This document shows, in pieces, positions 43,425 to 50,236 of a stretch of 50,236 nt of DNA. How positions within the stretch are numbered: position 1 is the stretch's first letter; the number at the start of each line of letters is the position of its first letter. The notes below the pieces were generated by a model. The model was not told the DNA's origin. It saw nothing but the letters and a program-made list of their open reading frames with translations, and did no database searches. Made by a program: the position numbers and the translations under genes. Origin of the DNA: Polaribacter sp. (GTDB lineage Bacteria; Bacteroidota; Bacteroidia; Flavobacteriales; Flavobacteriaceae); the NCBI GenBank assembly GCA_030758355.1, contig JANREL010000007.1, positions 1 through 50,236 of the forward strand, given 5' to 3'.

Positions 43425-44600
43425 TTAGACCATTTCAATTTTTGAAACATTATTTACTTCTTTCATGATACCATGAATATCTTGGTCTTTTACTTCTTTT
43501 TGAATATCTGCAACAGTTAAAAAAGCATCATAAGCAACATCCAATTGAACTTTGGTCAATTCATACCCAATTTTTTTTGCTCTGTAAGCCAACGCTGCTC
43601 TTCCACTTCTAGCAGTTAGAACAATGGCACTTTCTGTAACTCCAACATCTTCAGGATTCATGATTTCGTAAGTTTCTCTATTTTTAATCACGCCATCTTG
43701 ATGAATTCCTGAACTGTGAGCAAAGGCATTTGCACCAACAATGGCTTTGTTTGGTTGCACAGGCATTCCCATACTTTCTCGGACCAAAATACTGGTATCG
43801 TATAACAATTTTGTATTGATACTCGTCTCCAAATTCAAATATGGATGTTGTTTTAAAATCATTACCACTTCTTCTAAAGCAGTATTTCCTGCACGTTCTC
43901 CAATTCCATTGATAGTACATTCTATTTGACGAGCACCATTAATCACGCCTGCAATTGAATTGGCAGTTGCCATTCCTAAATCATTATGACAATGACAAGA
44001 AAGAATTACATTTTCAATTCCTTTGACATTTTCGCGCAGATATTTGATTTTTGCTCCATACTCGTCTGGCAAACAATAGCCTGTTGTATCAGGAATATTC
44101 AACACTGTTGCACCAGCTTTGATGACTGCCTCACAGACTTTTGCTAAGAATTCATTGTCAGTTCTTCCTGCATCTTCAGCATAAAATTCGACATCTTCCA
44201 CAAATGATTTCGCGAATGTAACTGCCTTAATTGCACGTTCAATAACTTCCTCTCTGGTTGAATTAAACTTAAATTTGATGTGAGAATCACTCGTTCCAAT
44301 TCCAGTATGAATTCTAGGAAATTTCGCATATTTCAACGCTTCAGCAGCAACTTTTATATCATTTTCAACAGCTCTTGTCAAACCACAAATAGTTGCATTT
44401 TTTACAATTTTTGCGATTTCTGAAACAGAAAGAAAATCACCCGGACTTGACACAGGAAAACCAGCTTCAATGACGTTTACTCCCAGTAAATCCAATCTTT
44501 CAGCAATGATTAATTTTTGTTTTGTATCTAATTTACAGCCGGGAACTTGTTCTCCATCTCTTAGTGTGGTATCAAAAATTTGTACTTTATTATCTTGCAT
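43425..44600 (-). CDS. leuA: 2-isopropylmalate synthase, short form without the C-terminal regulatory domain
   Basis: [85 protein letters not shown]; 391 aa. Confidence 0.92.
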
Positions 44601-44630
44601 GATTTATGTAAAGATTATATTTGTAGATAC

Positions 44631-44662
44631 CAAATGTATATATTGCATTCGCAATTGAGCAA
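44631..44662 (-). promoter_or_regulatory. Candidate leuA promoter
   Basis: Minus strand TTG-N21-TACATTTG. The -7 box matches TAnnTTTG, about 30 nt before leuA. Confidence 0.45.
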
Positions 44663-44733
44663 TATTAAGTTGCTTTTTGCACGATATCTAAACCTTAAAA
44701 TATACAACTTAAAATACTGTTTTTAAAATAGTT

Positions 44734-46299
44734 ATGAATAAAAACATTACATTAGCCAATCAGCAAAATGATGCTCTTTTTGTGCTTATTAAGTCGTTAA
44801 CAAAATCCGAAAAAAGACAATTTAATTTGTATGTTGGAAGATTGGGAGGTAATATTGATGCAAAATTTTTTGCGCTTTTTAAGTTTTTAGAAAAACTAAA
44901 AGTGTATAATGAAAAAGAAATTATCAAAAGTGAGATTGTTTCCAAACAGCAATTGTCCAATTTAAAAGCACATTTATACAAACAAATTCTCATCAGTCTT
45001 CGACTAAATCCTGCTCACAAAAATATCCGAATTCAAATCAGAGAACAGCTCGATTTTGCAACGGTTTTATATCAAAAAGGATTGTATAAACAGAGTTTAA
45101 AATTGTTGGATAAAGCCAAAACTTTTGCGCTTGAGAACGAAGAAAAAAACATAGCCTACGAAATTGTAGAACTCGAAAAAGTAATTGAAACACAATACAT
45201 TACACGAAGTTTAAGCAACAGGGCTGACCACCTTTCAGAGCAAGCAAAAACGCTGAGTCAGCAAAACGTAATTGCTAGTAAATTGTCTAATTTATCTTTG
45301 CAATTGTATAGTCATTTATTGCAAAATGGGTATGTAAAAAACAACGAAGAATTGGAATTTATCAACTCTTATTTTTACAGGAAGTTGCCAAAATACGATT
45401 TCAATACATTTGGATTTAGAGAAAAATTATGGTTATACAAATCACATTTATGGTTTAGTCTGCTAACTCAAGATTTTTTACAGAGCTATAAATATGCCAA
45501 AAAATGGGTAAGTCTTTTTCAAGAAAATAAAAAGTTGATTGGTTTGCATCCTGTTTTTTATCTAAAAGGGAAAAATTATTTGTTAGAAGCTTCCTTTTTC
45601 GTCAAGAAAATCAGCACTTTTAAAGAGGAGTTGCAATCATTTGAAGAAGATGTTGCACACGATTATGTCCCTTTAAATACCAATACTGAAGTACTTATTT
45701 TTCAATATTTGTATGCAAATAAATTGCATTTGCATTTCTTGGAAGCCACTTTTGCGGAGGGTGAATATTTGGTGGCAATTATCAATAAAAAAATTGAGCA
45801 ATATCATAGTAGATTGGATTCGCATCATATTGTGATGTTGTATTACAAAATTGCCTGTTTGTATTTCGGGATGGGGAAAAACGAACTGTGCATCAAATAT
45901 TTAGAAAAGATTATTGATTCAAAAAACTTAAATGCAGGTGAAGATTTACAATGTTTTGCACGTGTTTTAAACTTGATAGCGCACTACGAATGTGGATTAG
46001 ATTACGACCTTGAAAGACAGTTTTTAGACACTTACAAGTTCCTGATAAAAATGGAAAATTTGCAAGAAGTCCAGAAAGAATTTATCATTTCTATCAAAGA
46101 TTTGAGTGATGTTTTTCCACATGAAATTAAAAACGAATTCAAAAAAATTCACGCTCGTTTAAAGAAATATGAAAACCATACTTACGAAAAAAGAGCCTTT
46201 TTATACTTGGATATTTTGTCTTGGTTAGAAAGTAAAATTGAAAATAAACCCATTGCAACAATCATTAAGGAAAAATCAAATTTGATTGGTAAAAAATAG
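44734..46299 (+). CDS. Helical-repeat (TPR-like) protein of unknown function, 521 aa
   Basis: Long ORF, alpha-helical composition; ATVLYQKGLYKQSLKLLDKAKTFALENEEKN, LSFREKLWLYKSHLW-type TPR-like helices. No enzyme motif recognised. Confidence 0.75.
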   Translation: MNKNITLANQQNDALFVLIKSLTKSEKRQFNLYVGRLGGNIDAKFFALFKFLEKLKVYNEKEIIKSEIVSKQQLSNLKAHLYKQILISLRLNPAHKNIRIQIREQLDFATVLYQKGLYKQSLKLLDKAKTFALENEEKNIAYEIVELEKVIETQYITRSLSNRADHLSEQAKTLSQQNVIASKLSNLSLQLYSHLLQNGYVKNNEELEFINSYFYRKLPKYDFNTFGFREKLWLYKSHLWFSLLTQDFLQSYKYAKKWVSLFQENKKLIGLHPVFYLKGKNYLLEASFFVKKISTFKEELQSFEEDVAHDYVPLNTNTEVLIFQYLYANKLHLHFLEATFAEGEYLVAIINKKIEQYHSRLDSHHIVMLYYKIACLYFGMGKNELCIKYLEKIIDSKNLNAGEDLQCFARVLNLIAHYECGLDYDLERQFLDTYKFLIKMENLQEVQKEFIISIKDLSDVFPHEIKNEFKKIHARLKKYENHTYEKRAFLYLDILSWLESKIENKPIATIIKEKSNLIGKK

Positions 46300-46377
46300 T
46301 ATTATTTAATATTTTAACATTTTTTATGATCTATTCATATTTATTGTTTCATTTATCAAAAAAATAAATAATAAATG

Positions 46378-46407
46378 TTGCTAAGATAATTTTAACCATT
46401 ACTTTTG
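46378..46407 (+). promoter_or_regulatory. Consensus Bacteroidetes promoter upstream of the thr operon
   Basis: TTG-N19-TACTTTTG, matching -33/-7 spacing; the -7 box ends 4 nt before a leader ATG. Confidence 0.65.
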
Positions 46408-46411
46408 GCAC

Positions 46412-46513
46412 ATGAAATTTTCTTTTTTAAATAAAAATCTTTCAAATTTGACTTCAGTTTTTTGCATCTCTGCAACGAAAACTCTAAATACAACTTCAAC
46501 ATTTACCCTTTAG
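46412..46513 (+). CDS. Candidate threonine-rich leader peptide (33 aa) upstream of thrA
   Basis: MKFSFLNKNLSNLTSVFCISATKTLNTTSTFTL*; 7 Thr of 33, 6 of the last 12 residues; directly after a consensus promoter. Confidence 0.6.
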   Translation: MKFSFLNKNLSNLTSVFCISATKTLNTTSTFTL

Positions 46514-46609
46514 GGGTTCTCACTATTTATATCATCCTATCATTATTTTTCGAACAAAATTCGAAACAAAAACCCTTAAAAATCAATCAACCTATTTATC
46601 CTTCATAAG

Positions 46610-49048
46610 ATGAAAGTACTAAAATTTGGAGGCTCATCAGTAGCCAATTCAGAAAATATAAAAAAAGTTTTAAAGATTGTTTCTGACGCATCAAATGAAA
46701 CAAAAATTGCAGTGGTTGTCTCTGCATTTGGAAAAACTACCGACAATTTATTAGCTGGAGCAAACCACGCTTTACAAAATATTGAACTAGCAAAACAGCA
46801 ACTAGAAATCATTCAAAAACTACATTTTGAAGTTATCAATGAATTAATTAAAACAAATATTACTGAAGTTTCTGAAAAGGTTAGCTCTCTATTTAATAAA
46901 GTATTATCAATCTATCAAGGGGTTTTTTTACTGCAAGAATTGTCCGCCAAAACATTGGCAAAAGTTTCGAGTTTTGGAGAAAAATTATCTTCTTTTATCA
47001 TTGCAAATGCCGCAAAAGAATTGTTTGATGCCACACATCAGGAAAGTAATAAACTCATAATTACAGATTCCAATTACTTGAATGCACAAGTTGATTTTGG
47101 AAAAACAAATCAAAATATTATTGATTTTTTCAACACAAATTCACATCAAGTTACCATTTTTGGAGGGTTTATTTCTTCAAATGAAGGAGAAGAAATTACC
47201 ACTTTAGGAAGAGGAGGCTCAGATTATTCTGCTGCTATTTTCGCAGCTGCTTTGGATGCTGATGTATTGGAAATTTGGACAGATGTAAGTGGTATGTTTA
47301 CTGCCAATCCAACCATCGTAAAACAGGCATTTGCGATCAAAGAAATTTCATATGAAGAAGCTATGGAATTATCACATTTTGGTGCAAAAGTGCTATATCC
47401 ACCAACAATTCAGCCTGCTTTGCGAAAAGAAATTCCTATTAGAATCAAAAATACCTTTGAACCTGAAAATTCAGGAACTTTAATTTCAAATAATCCTCAA
47501 AAAAACGGAGCAGTTAAAGGAATTTCACACATTGAAAACATCAGTTTGATAACCCTTGAAGGGGGAGGAATGGTTGGAATTCCTGGTTTTTCAAAACGAT
47601 TATTTGAAACACTTTCTCAACAAAAAATCAATGTAATTTTTATCACTCAAGCATCTTCAGAATATTCAATTTGCGTTGGTGTTTATGAAAATGATGCTCC
47701 AAAAGCGAAACTTTCTTTAGAAGAAACCTTCTGTGTAGAAATTGAACGAAAAAAAATCAAACCAATTCATATTGAAAGTGATTTGGCAATCATTGCAGTT
47801 GTTGGCGAAAGCATGAAAAACCACCAAGGTTTAAGCGGACAAATATTCAGTGCACTTGGGAAAAATAATGTAAATATTAGAGCTATTGCACAAGGTTCTT
47901 CAGAGAAAAATATTTCGGCAGTTATCAATAAAAAAGATGCCAAAAAAGCGTTGAACACTCTACACGAGCAGTTTTTTGAAGAAAAAATAAAACAAGTAAA
48001 CCTTTTTGTTACTGGAATTGGCAATGTTGGTGAACGTTTTTTAGCGCAACTATATCAACAAAAAAACCATTTGAAAGAACACCTCAAACTCAATATTCGT
48101 GTTATTGGAATTTCAAATTCTAAGAAAATGATTTTTGATAAAAATGGAATTTCTTTATCAAACTGGAAAAAGGAACTAGAAAATGGAGAAAATGCAAGTT
48201 TGGAAGGATTTTTCAAAAATGCAAAATTACTAAATTTACGCAACTCCGTTTTTATTGATAATACTGCCAATGAGCAAGTTGCAGCTATGTATTCAAATTA
48301 TTTGAGAGAGAGTATTGCTGTGGTAACTTGCAATAAAATTGCTTGTGCTTCAAACTTAGAAAATTATAAAAATCTGAAGAGAATTTCAAGAAAATACAAT
48401 GCTCCATTTTTATTTGAAACTAATGTTGGTGCAGGTTTACCGATTATTGACACCCTTAAAAATTTAATAAATTCAGGAGATAAAATCCATAAAATACAAG
48501 CTGTTTTATCAGGAAGTTTGAATTTTGTTTTCAATAATTTTGATAAAAAAACGACTTTTCAAAGTGTGGTTATGCAAGCCCAAAAAGAGGGATATACAGA
48601 ACCTGATCCAAAAATTGATTTGAGTGGTATTGATGTTGCCAGAAAAATATTGATTTTAGCACGTGAAAGTGGTCATTCTTTGGAATTGAAAGACATTCAA
48701 AATCAAGCTTTTTTACCAAAAGAAACCTTAGAAACTGGTGATAACCAAAGCTTTTTTGATTCGTTACTGAGATTTGAAAATCAATTTCAAGAAATCTATC
48801 AAAAAGCTGCTTCAAAAAACTGTAGGTTGAAATATGTAGCTGAATTTGTAGATGGAAAAGCCAATGTTGGTTTGCAAGAAATACCTCCACAACATCCATT
48901 TTACAATCTGGAAGGAAGTGATAATATTGTATTGTTTTTTACTGACAGATATTCAAAAAATCCATTATTGATAAAAGGTGCAGGAGCTGGAGCTGAAGTA
49001 ACAGCATCAGGAATTTTTGCAGATGTTATCAGAATTGGAAATAATTAA
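46610..49048 (+). CDS. thrA: Bifunctional aspartate kinase / homoserine dehydrogenase I
   Basis: MKVLKFGGSSVANSENIKKV, GRGGSDYSAAIFAAALDADVLEIWTDVSGM; ACT domains; HSD part VNLFVTGIGNVGERFLAQL, NVGAGLPIIDTLKNLINSGDKI. Confidence 0.97.
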   Translation: MKVLKFGGSSVANSENIKKVLKIVSDASNETKIAVVVSAFGKTTDNLLAGANHALQNIELAKQQLEIIQKLHFEVINELIKTNITEVSEKVSSLFNKVLSIYQGVFLLQELSAKTLAKVSSFGEKLSSFIIANAAKELFDATHQESNKLIITDSNYLNAQVDFGKTNQNIIDFFNTNSHQVTIFGGFISSNEGEEITTLGRGGSDYSAAIFAAALDADVLEIWTDVSGMFTANPTIVKQAFAIKEISYEEAMELSHFGAKVLYPPTIQPALRKEIPIRIKNTFEPENSGTLISNNPQKNGAVKGISHIENISLITLEGGGMVGIPGFSKRLFETLSQQKINVIFITQASSEYSICVGVYENDAPKAKLSLEETFCVEIERKKIKPIHIESDLAIIAVVGESMKNHQGLSGQIFSALGKNNVNIRAIAQGSSEKNISAVINKKDAKKALNTLHEQFFEEKIKQVNLFVTGIGNVGERFLAQLYQQKNHLKEHLKLNIRVIGISNSKKMIFDKNGISLSNWKKELENGENASLEGFFKNAKLLNLRNSVFIDNTANEQVAAMYSNYLRESIAVVTCNKIACASNLENYKNLKRISRKYNAPFLFETNVGAGLPIIDTLKNLINSGDKIHKIQAVLSGSLNFVFNNFDKKTTFQSVVMQAQKEGYTEPDPKIDLSGIDVARKILILARESGHSLELKDIQNQAFLPKETLETGDNQSFFDSLLRFENQFQEIYQKAASKNCRLKYVAEFVDGKANVGLQEIPPQHPFYNLEGSDNIVLFFTDRYSKNPLLIKGAGAGAEVTASGIFADVIRIGNN

Positions 49049-49119
49049 TCAATAACTTTAATTGGATATTTAGCTACTTTTGAACATTGAATCCAAAATT
49101 TTAAACTTTAAACAACAAA

Positions 49120-50049
49120 ATGAATTATTTAAAAATATTTTCCCCAGCAACAGTAGCCAATGTTTCTTGTGGATTTGATTCACTCGGATTTGCAATTGAT
49201 ACTGTTGGTGACGAAATGACGTTTACAAAAACTACTGAAAAAGGAGTAAAAATTACCGAAATTACAGGAGCAAATTTACCTTTTGATGTGGACAAAAACG
49301 CTGCAAGTGCTGTTGTTAAAAAAATGTTGCTAGAAAGTAATGCCGATTTTGGAATTTCAATTACCATTCACAAAGGGTTTTCGCCAGGAAGCGGTCTTGG
49401 AAGTAGTGCTGCAAGTGCTGCTGGTGCTGCTTTTGGTGCGAATCAATTTTTGCAAAATCGTTTCTCTGAACTAGAATTGACCAAATATGCCATGTTTGGT
49501 GAAGAGGTGGCTTGTGGGTCACAAATTGCCGATAATGTAGCAGCCGCAACGTATGGAGGTTTTGTCTTAGTAAGAAGTTACAATCCTTTAGAAATCATTA
49601 AATTGCCTGTTCCAAATGAATTGCGATTGGTAGCAATTCACCCACAAATAGAAATCAAAACCAAAGATGCAAGAGAAGTTTTGCCGAAAGAAATTCTACT
49701 GAAAGATGCCGTAACTCAATGGGCAAATGTAGGTGGTTTGATTGCTGGTTTGTATGCGAATAACTACGAATTGATTGGGCATTCTTTAGTAGATATTATT
49801 GTAGAGCCAGCTCGCAAAAACCTAATTCCTCATTTTGATATTGTAAAACAAAACGCTATCAATGCAGGTGCTTTAGGCGCTGGAATTAGTGGCTCAGGAC
49901 CAACTATTTTCGCTCTTTGCAAAGGTGATGTAATTGCTAAAAAAGTGTTTGAGGCGATTCAGCATAATTATAAAAACACGGGAATTGAAGCCACTGCTTT
50001 TATTTCGAAAGTGAATAATGAAGGGATAAAAATTCTTGAAAAAAAGTAA
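49120..50049 (+). CDS. thrB: Homoserine kinase
   Basis: IFSPATVANVSCGFDSLGFAID; SPGSGLGSSAASAAGAAFGAN; GALGAGISGSGPTIFAL. Confidence 0.96.
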   Translation: MNYLKIFSPATVANVSCGFDSLGFAIDTVGDEMTFTKTTEKGVKITEITGANLPFDVDKNAASAVVKKMLLESNADFGISITIHKGFSPGSGLGSSAASAAGAAFGANQFLQNRFSELELTKYAMFGEEVACGSQIADNVAAATYGGFVLVRSYNPLEIIKLPVPNELRLVAIHPQIEIKTKDAREVLPKEILLKDAVTQWANVGGLIAGLYANNYELIGHSLVDIIVEPARKNLIPHFDIVKQNAINAGALGAGISGSGPTIFALCKGDVIAKKVFEAIQHNYKNTGIEATAFISKVNNEGIKILEKK

Positions 50050-50050
50050 T

Positions 50051-50236
50051 ATGAACTACTACAGTCTAAACCATAATTCTCCAAAAACAAACTTTATAAA
50101 TGCTGTCATTAGTGGTATTGCTCCTGACAGAGGTTTGTATTTTCCTGAAAAAATAACACCACTTCCAAGTGATTTTTTTGAAAATATCGAAAGCTATTCT
50201 AACCATGAAATTGCGTTTGAAGTCATTAAACAATTT
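50051..50236 (+). CDS. thrC: Threonine synthase, N-terminal part (truncated by window end)
   Basis: MNYYSLNHNSPKTNFINAVISGIAPDRGLYFPEKITPLP, directly after thrB. Confidence 0.92.
   Translation, partial: MNYYSLNHNSPKTNFINAVISGIAPDRGLYFPEKITPLPSDFFENIESYSNHEIAFEVIKQF

Follow-up and report, generated by a model that had tools for sequence, protein, structure and literature searches.

We analyzed a window of 50,236 nt, the whole stretch of DNA under study, which comes from a Polaribacter-like Flavobacteriaceae genome whose closest named genomes are Polaribacter and Tenacibaculum. Toward the 3' end of the window lie thrA and thrB, followed by a probable thrC fragment that is without a family match and is named from its position and N-terminal sequence only. 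Upstream of thrA we find a promoter, a short ORF ending in threonine codons, a hairpin (H1) that holds the stop codon of this ORF, and an untranslated stretch reaching to thrA (Table 1).

The gene 5' of the leader (44734-46299, + strand) resembles the BT2802 family with a score of 94.3 bits for NF058569, under the cut-off of 550. Farther upstream on the minus strand (43425-44600), the leuA product of 391 aa aligns only with about the first 385 of the 494-516 leuA-model positions and is without the C-terminal part, the usual place of the leucine feedback domain.

Table 1. Features of the thr leader and operon, in window coordinates
Feature	Position	Strand	Basis
Bacteroidetes sigma-A promoter: TTG (46378-46380), N19, -7 box TACTTTTG (46400-46407)	46378..46407	+	sequence
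Predicted transcription start, A of leader ATG (leaderless)	46412	+	promoter geometry
Leader ORF, MKFSFLNKNLSNLTSVFCISATKTLNTTSTFTL and stop, 33 codons	46412..46513	+	homologous leaders in relatives
Candidate regulatory codons, 6 Thr among last 12	46475..46510	+	codon enrichment across leaders
H1, ACCC-TTTAG-GGGT, holds stop TAG (46511-46513)	46505..46517	+	arms kept in 163/189 loci
C-rich, G-poor untranslated stretch, candidate Rho-loading region	46518..46609	+	base composition
Conserved sequence element ATATCA (consensus cATATmA), 11 nt 3' of H1	46529..46534	+	sequence conservation
H2 hairpin, TTTCGAA-CAAAA-TTCGAAA	46548..46566	+	recurs in genus
thrA, bifunctional aspartate kinase/homoserine dehydrogenase I	46610..49048	+	NF006959 (PRK09436.1), 1038.4 bits, cut-off 726
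thrB, homoserine kinase	49120..50049	+	NF002288 375.9 bits, TIGR00191 229.5 bits
Probable thrC fragment	begins 3' of thrB, leaves window		position and N-terminal sequence only

Codons, promoter and hairpins of the leader

An earlier note on this DNA had described the leader ORF with its six Thr codons among the last 12 and had proposed that a ribosome senses threonine on it. The ORF is as described, with a seventh Thr codon farther upstream. We drew thrA upstream regions from genomes of the same genus, from the order, from named genomes and from the class; the loci are related, and counts of this type are not independent events. The comparison of relatives that the note had called for supports the proposal, as leader ORF, Thr-rich frame and H1 are present in 163 of 189 thrA loci (Flavobacteriales-centred, duplicates removed), and every one of the 29 complete thrA loci first examined in the genus has a short Thr/Ile-rich ORF ending in H1. 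Across leaders, 42.9 % of the last 12 codons are for Thr and 19.7 % for Ile, compared to 13.0 % each in the N-terminal part. The Thr-richest frame over the 12 codons before H1 is the frame that reads the ACC of H1 as a codon in 163/163 cases. Amino-acid leader-peptide attenuators have a short translated ORF rich in cognate codons between the promoter and the first gene. The leader ORF, translated as predicted, would be of this kind, and these sequence comparisons make it very probable that the element is such an attenuator, with Thr and Ile as the amino acids read.

The TTG-N19-box layout with 4 nt before the leader ATG, also claimed earlier, is present in the window. In F. psychrophilum the TAnnTTTG box spans -12 to -5, and about 5.5 % of mRNAs are leaderless (PMC9723704). 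With this box position applied to the window, the +1 is predicted to fall on the A of the ATG. An exact TAnnTTTG box is found 5' of the leader start in 141 of the 158 loci having a start and any box match, and internal promoters between H1 and thrA occur in only 3 of 163 loci. Of 53 loci from the genus of the window, 35 have 4 nt and 15 have 5 nt between the box and the start codon (4-5 nt in 50/53), and 35 of these 53 leaders start with GTG. This geometry predicts a leaderless or nearly leaderless mRNA in the genus, as the note had suggested. Flavobacterium and Chryseobacterium-like genomes have a box-to-start distance of 9-12 nt, and other groups mostly one of 14-22 nt; strict leaderlessness would therefore be a trait of the window's genus and not of the whole class.

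The general form of H1 is ACCC(C/T)-loop-GGGGT with the stop codon inside or just after it. Its loop length and the position of the stop vary between lineages while the arms stay. With a stop codon either in the loop or a little 3' of the 3' arm, the peptide ends in TL, TP, TPLG, TPFGV, TLWG or TLRG, and the remainder of the peptide diverges. Such variable ends next to constant arms argue for selection on the RNA hairpin and the codon content rather than on the peptide, and the sequences thus point to H1 being selected as an RNA structure. H1 is the only conserved helix found by RNAalifold in five lineage groups, save one extra helix in Flavobacterium, with a predicted pair probability of 0.70-0.99. 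In at least two more loci (L067 and L148, by eye) it lies just outside the searched range.

The earlier note had seen the short ACCC/GGGT hairpin as a competitor of a longer pairing between the stop region (46511-46518) and 46571-46578. The hairpin exists, but it is the conserved structure (ACCCTTTAGGGGT) and not a mere competitor. The longer pairing, with AACCCTTA downstream, has a shuffle rank of 0.40 in the window and mean ranks of 0.51-0.69 in relatives; its downstream partner is missing in L002, a relative with 91% identity, and is changed in L127. Being at or below chance and lost in the nearest relatives, this alternative pairing was rejected. A search for 2:3 pairing in general, between GGGGT and CC motifs farther downstream, gave no signal across the five lineage groups. 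A further proposed hairpin over the first Thr codons, GTTTTTTGCA...TGCAA..AAAAC, is seen by eye in L002 and partly in L127, and only in those nearest relatives.

Hairpin H2, correctly noted before, shows modest covariation in the genus (87.6 % paired versus a shuffle maximum of 85.6 %). Fold z-scores downstream of H1 average -1.16 in the window's genus and -1.79 in the Chryseobacterium-like group and are near 0 in the others. Since they are near zero in two of the five groups, H2 is not a universal part of the leader; lineages other than the window's genus carry second hairpins of their own. The cATATmA element follows H1 at a distance of 5-15 nt in 128 of 163 loci where dinucleotide shuffles predict 19. 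Its spacing is tied to H1 (sd 1.7) and not to the stop codon (sd 5.6).

We also considered the H1 motif as a general leader element and rejected it, as the window's genome has a single exact copy of ACCCTTTAGGGGTT, the one at thrA, and likewise most relatives having the motif. One relative (G013) has 12 copies of ACCCTTTAGGGGTT, mostly as inverted pairs 5 bp apart (e.g. G013:C1 1962316-1962348), and another (G026) has 3. The G013 copies form a separate palindromic repeat family that resembles H1.

Output of the leader and rival explanations

A terminator scan finds no intrinsic terminator after H1 in the window, in line with the earlier remark that none of the 3' hairpins has a clear U-tract. 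The same scan, looking for a strong hairpin followed by a U-tract, finds one in 28 of 30 trp leaders, in 21 of 22 his leaders and in all 8 thr leaders without H1, the latter chosen by eye and thus an illustration rather than a sample. Among H1-type thr leaders a terminator-like match is found in 22 of 163; most of those listed consist of H1 and a moderately T-rich tail, and the match in L092 is a separate hairpin. The mutually exclusive terminator and antiterminator with U-tract of the classical attenuator are not found here, there being neither a terminator after H1 nor a conserved alternative pairing. With no such terminator where the his and trp leaders have one, the H1-type thr leader would act through another output. 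That the thr pathway uses attenuation at all is suggested by the thr leaders without H1, which pair Thr-rich ORFs with classical intrinsic terminators.

The his and trp loci, mostly of the same family, read as textbook attenuators. The his loci (L237-L258, of which L247 is the window's own genome, G000:C159) have a leader such as MIFIQAHHHHFYNCSQAI and stop before hisG, a CTCAAGCG antiterminator segment and a classical terminator, AACCCGTTTGAGCAAATCAAACGGGTTTTT.

The earlier note had offered Rho-dependent termination or translation control as the output. To the first, the composition of the RNA is favourable: in the window, C accounts for 22.8 % and G for 3.3 % of the stretch from H1 to thrA, compared to an average of 13.2 % C and 11.3 % G in the control intergenic regions of the window. 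C exceeds G in 160 of 163 such stretches versus 11 of 20 control intergenic regions, with a weak bias in Flavobacterium (14.1/9.9 %). A rho gene is present in the window's own genome and in 30 of 30 genomes searched. Rho-loading sites are expected to be C-rich and G-poor like the RNA after H1, and this composition, together with the rho gene, favours an output of the Rho type. The arguments are indirect, and on them Rho is tentatively taken as the most likely effector of the thr leader. Translation control finds no support in the predicted access to the thrA start, since the unpaired probability of positions -18 to +6 is 0.48 both with the full leader and with leader and H1 removed in the genus, and 0.55-0.65 versus 0.55-0.67 in the other groups.

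We hypothesize that the leader works as follows. The sensor would be charged tRNA-Thr, and secondarily tRNA-Ile, as read by a ribosome on the leader. Judging from the promoter geometry, the first transcribed nucleotide would be the A of the ATG, and ribosomes would load on the 5' end. The ribosome would then translate the 33 codons, of which the Thr-rich last third runs directly into the hairpin with the stop codon. With ample Thr it would finish and depart, H1 would re-form, and 60-100 nt of ribosome-free C-rich, G-poor RNA would allow Rho to load and to stop the polymerase before thrA. When Thr or Ile is scarce, the ribosome would stall beside H1 with its leading edge masking the ACCC arm; H1 would be blocked and the polymerase would escape into thrA. 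It is conceivable, as a speculation, that H1 and the ATATmA at its fixed distance make the polymerase pause and so gain time for Rho.

As a whole, the reading of thrABC as controlled by terminator-less Thr/Ile attenuation, probably with a Rho-dependent output, seems likely to us. We put forward more hesitantly the generalization that Bacteroidota have a widespread class of leaderless or near-leaderless Thr/Ile attenuators, in which a small stop-codon hairpin and a downstream motif at a fixed distance would pause the polymerase and hand it to Rho. Starvation would then be read without a terminator/antiterminator pair, while his and trp are classical in the same family.

Alternatively, H1 itself may be the terminator, or a pause hairpin at which transcription ends. 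This short GC hairpin and its weak T-rich tail would then stop the polymerase without Rho unless a ribosome sits on it. Nearly all of the terminator-like matches listed are H1 with a T-rich tail such as ATTTTTCT, and ATATmA follows at a fixed 8-13 nt, a spacing close to the hairpin-to-3'-end distances of known hairpin pauses. H1 could indeed be a weak terminator in some lineages. However, the tail in the window and most loci is TTCTCACTATTT or similar with a score of zero, and the hairpin, with 4-5 pairs and about -5 kcal/mol in the window, is far weaker than the his and trp terminators of the same family, which makes this explanation rather unlikely for the leader at large.

Less probable still is translation attenuation, in which the leader would alter access to the thrA start. 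It has a precedent in what was proposed for mycobacterial leaderless poly-Cys leaders (Canestrari et al. 2020, as cited in PMC13236596), and the absence of an intrinsic terminator here would suit it, but the predicted access is unchanged by removing the leader and H1. It is very improbable that a repressor binds ACCCC-GGGGT as a palindromic DNA operator and that the Thr-rich ORF is incidental. H1 is a near-perfect inverted repeat that is nearly sequence-invariant within the genus; across lineages, however, the gap between its arms differs by several bases, unlike in a dyad operator, its GC polarity can flip, and the repeat always follows the Thr codons directly and in frame (163/163). A chance ORF, or a small functional protein without a regulatory role, is highly unlikely: when the bases of the 198-nt leader are shuffled, 0.3 % of the shuffles contain an open 12-codon stretch with at least 6 Thr, which for a single sequence is not vanishing, but conservation refutes chance, with frame, position and Thr/Ile bias kept over the order while the remaining peptide diverges.

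Known systems and distribution in Bacteroidia

Threonine attenuation is a textbook case from enterobacteria. Like the enterobacterial thrL (RF00506 Thr_leader), the flavobacterial element would combine a Thr/Ile-rich leader peptide before thrABC with ribosome stalling as the sensor. Unlike thrL, it is predicted to be leaderless, has its stop codon inside H1 and has no intrinsic terminator. RF00506 has no match in the window stretch at E<=5, and the best matches in relatives score 32.5 bits or less, with a gathering cut-off of 55 bits. We found no Rfam family that covers the element.

A second comparison is with the his and trp leaders of the same family, the latter being the Bacteroid-trp RNA (RF01692), which also place a leader peptide with cognate codons before a biosynthetic operon. 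They differ by their strong intrinsic terminator and, in the loci read by eye, by a start farther from the promoter box. RF01692 has no match in the window at 44000-50236; the sole match of the window's genome is on another contig (G000:C19:5688-5801, 42.6 bits, just under the cut-off). Bacteroid-trp RNA has been described (PMC2864571) and was noted 5' of the F. psychrophilum trp operon (PMC6414381). For F. psychrophilum, Guerin et al. (2021, PMC9723704) state that there are strong clues to attenuation by leader peptides upstream of operons for amino-acid biosynthesis; the main text of that paper does not mention threonine, and its supplementary table may list thrA. Among the papers searched, none was found on thr attenuation in Bacteroidota.

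Mycobacterial poly-Cys attenuators (Canestrari et al. 2020) resemble the flavobacterial leader, as predicted here, in that a short leaderless ORF with many codons for the amino acid being sensed stands 5' of its operon, and mycobacterial leaderless ORFs have ATG or GTG at the 5' end (PMC4633059). They belong to another phylum, sense another amino acid and, according to PMC13236596, act by translation attenuation in M. smegmatis, whereas access to the thrA start is predicted to be unchanged in the flavobacterial leader.

Our reading would place a comparable threonine sensor in a distant phylum without Shine-Dalgarno initiation, with the leader at the 5' end of the RNA and no intrinsic terminator. 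It would be a natural system in which to test the cooperation of Rho with transcription and leaderless translation in Bacteroidota, and would give a matched comparison within one family between thr, which is without a terminator, and his/trp, which have one. For annotation, the element points to a specific RNA family made of Thr/Ile codons, H1 and ATATmA.

Five very small, endosymbiont-sized genomes (0.3-1.3 Mb; L097, L098, L106, L116, L121) retain thrA, but neither a Thr leader nor H1 is seen in the stretches read. In the class-level sample, read by eye, H1-type ends occur in several further families (L259, L267, L270, L283, L286-L288), and at three distant Bacteroidia loci (L274, L276, L281) the place of H1 is taken by ACGGGG..CCCGT, a hairpin whose GC polarity is reversed. 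Terminator-type thr leaders are found in the same sample at L272, L277, L278, L280 and L282. Those at L104, L122-L126, L272, L278, L280 and L282 likewise have a Thr-rich leader before thrA but differ in that the Thr run is near the N-terminus of the peptide, with a classical antiterminator segment and then a U-tract terminator coming after it. Two kinds of output thus seem to have served thr leaders. The thr leader of L093 has the stop region AGGGAGGGGTTG followed by a terminator-like AACCTTTC-TTTTTTA-GAAAGGTTTTTTTTT, and may stand midway between the H1-type and the terminator-type leaders.
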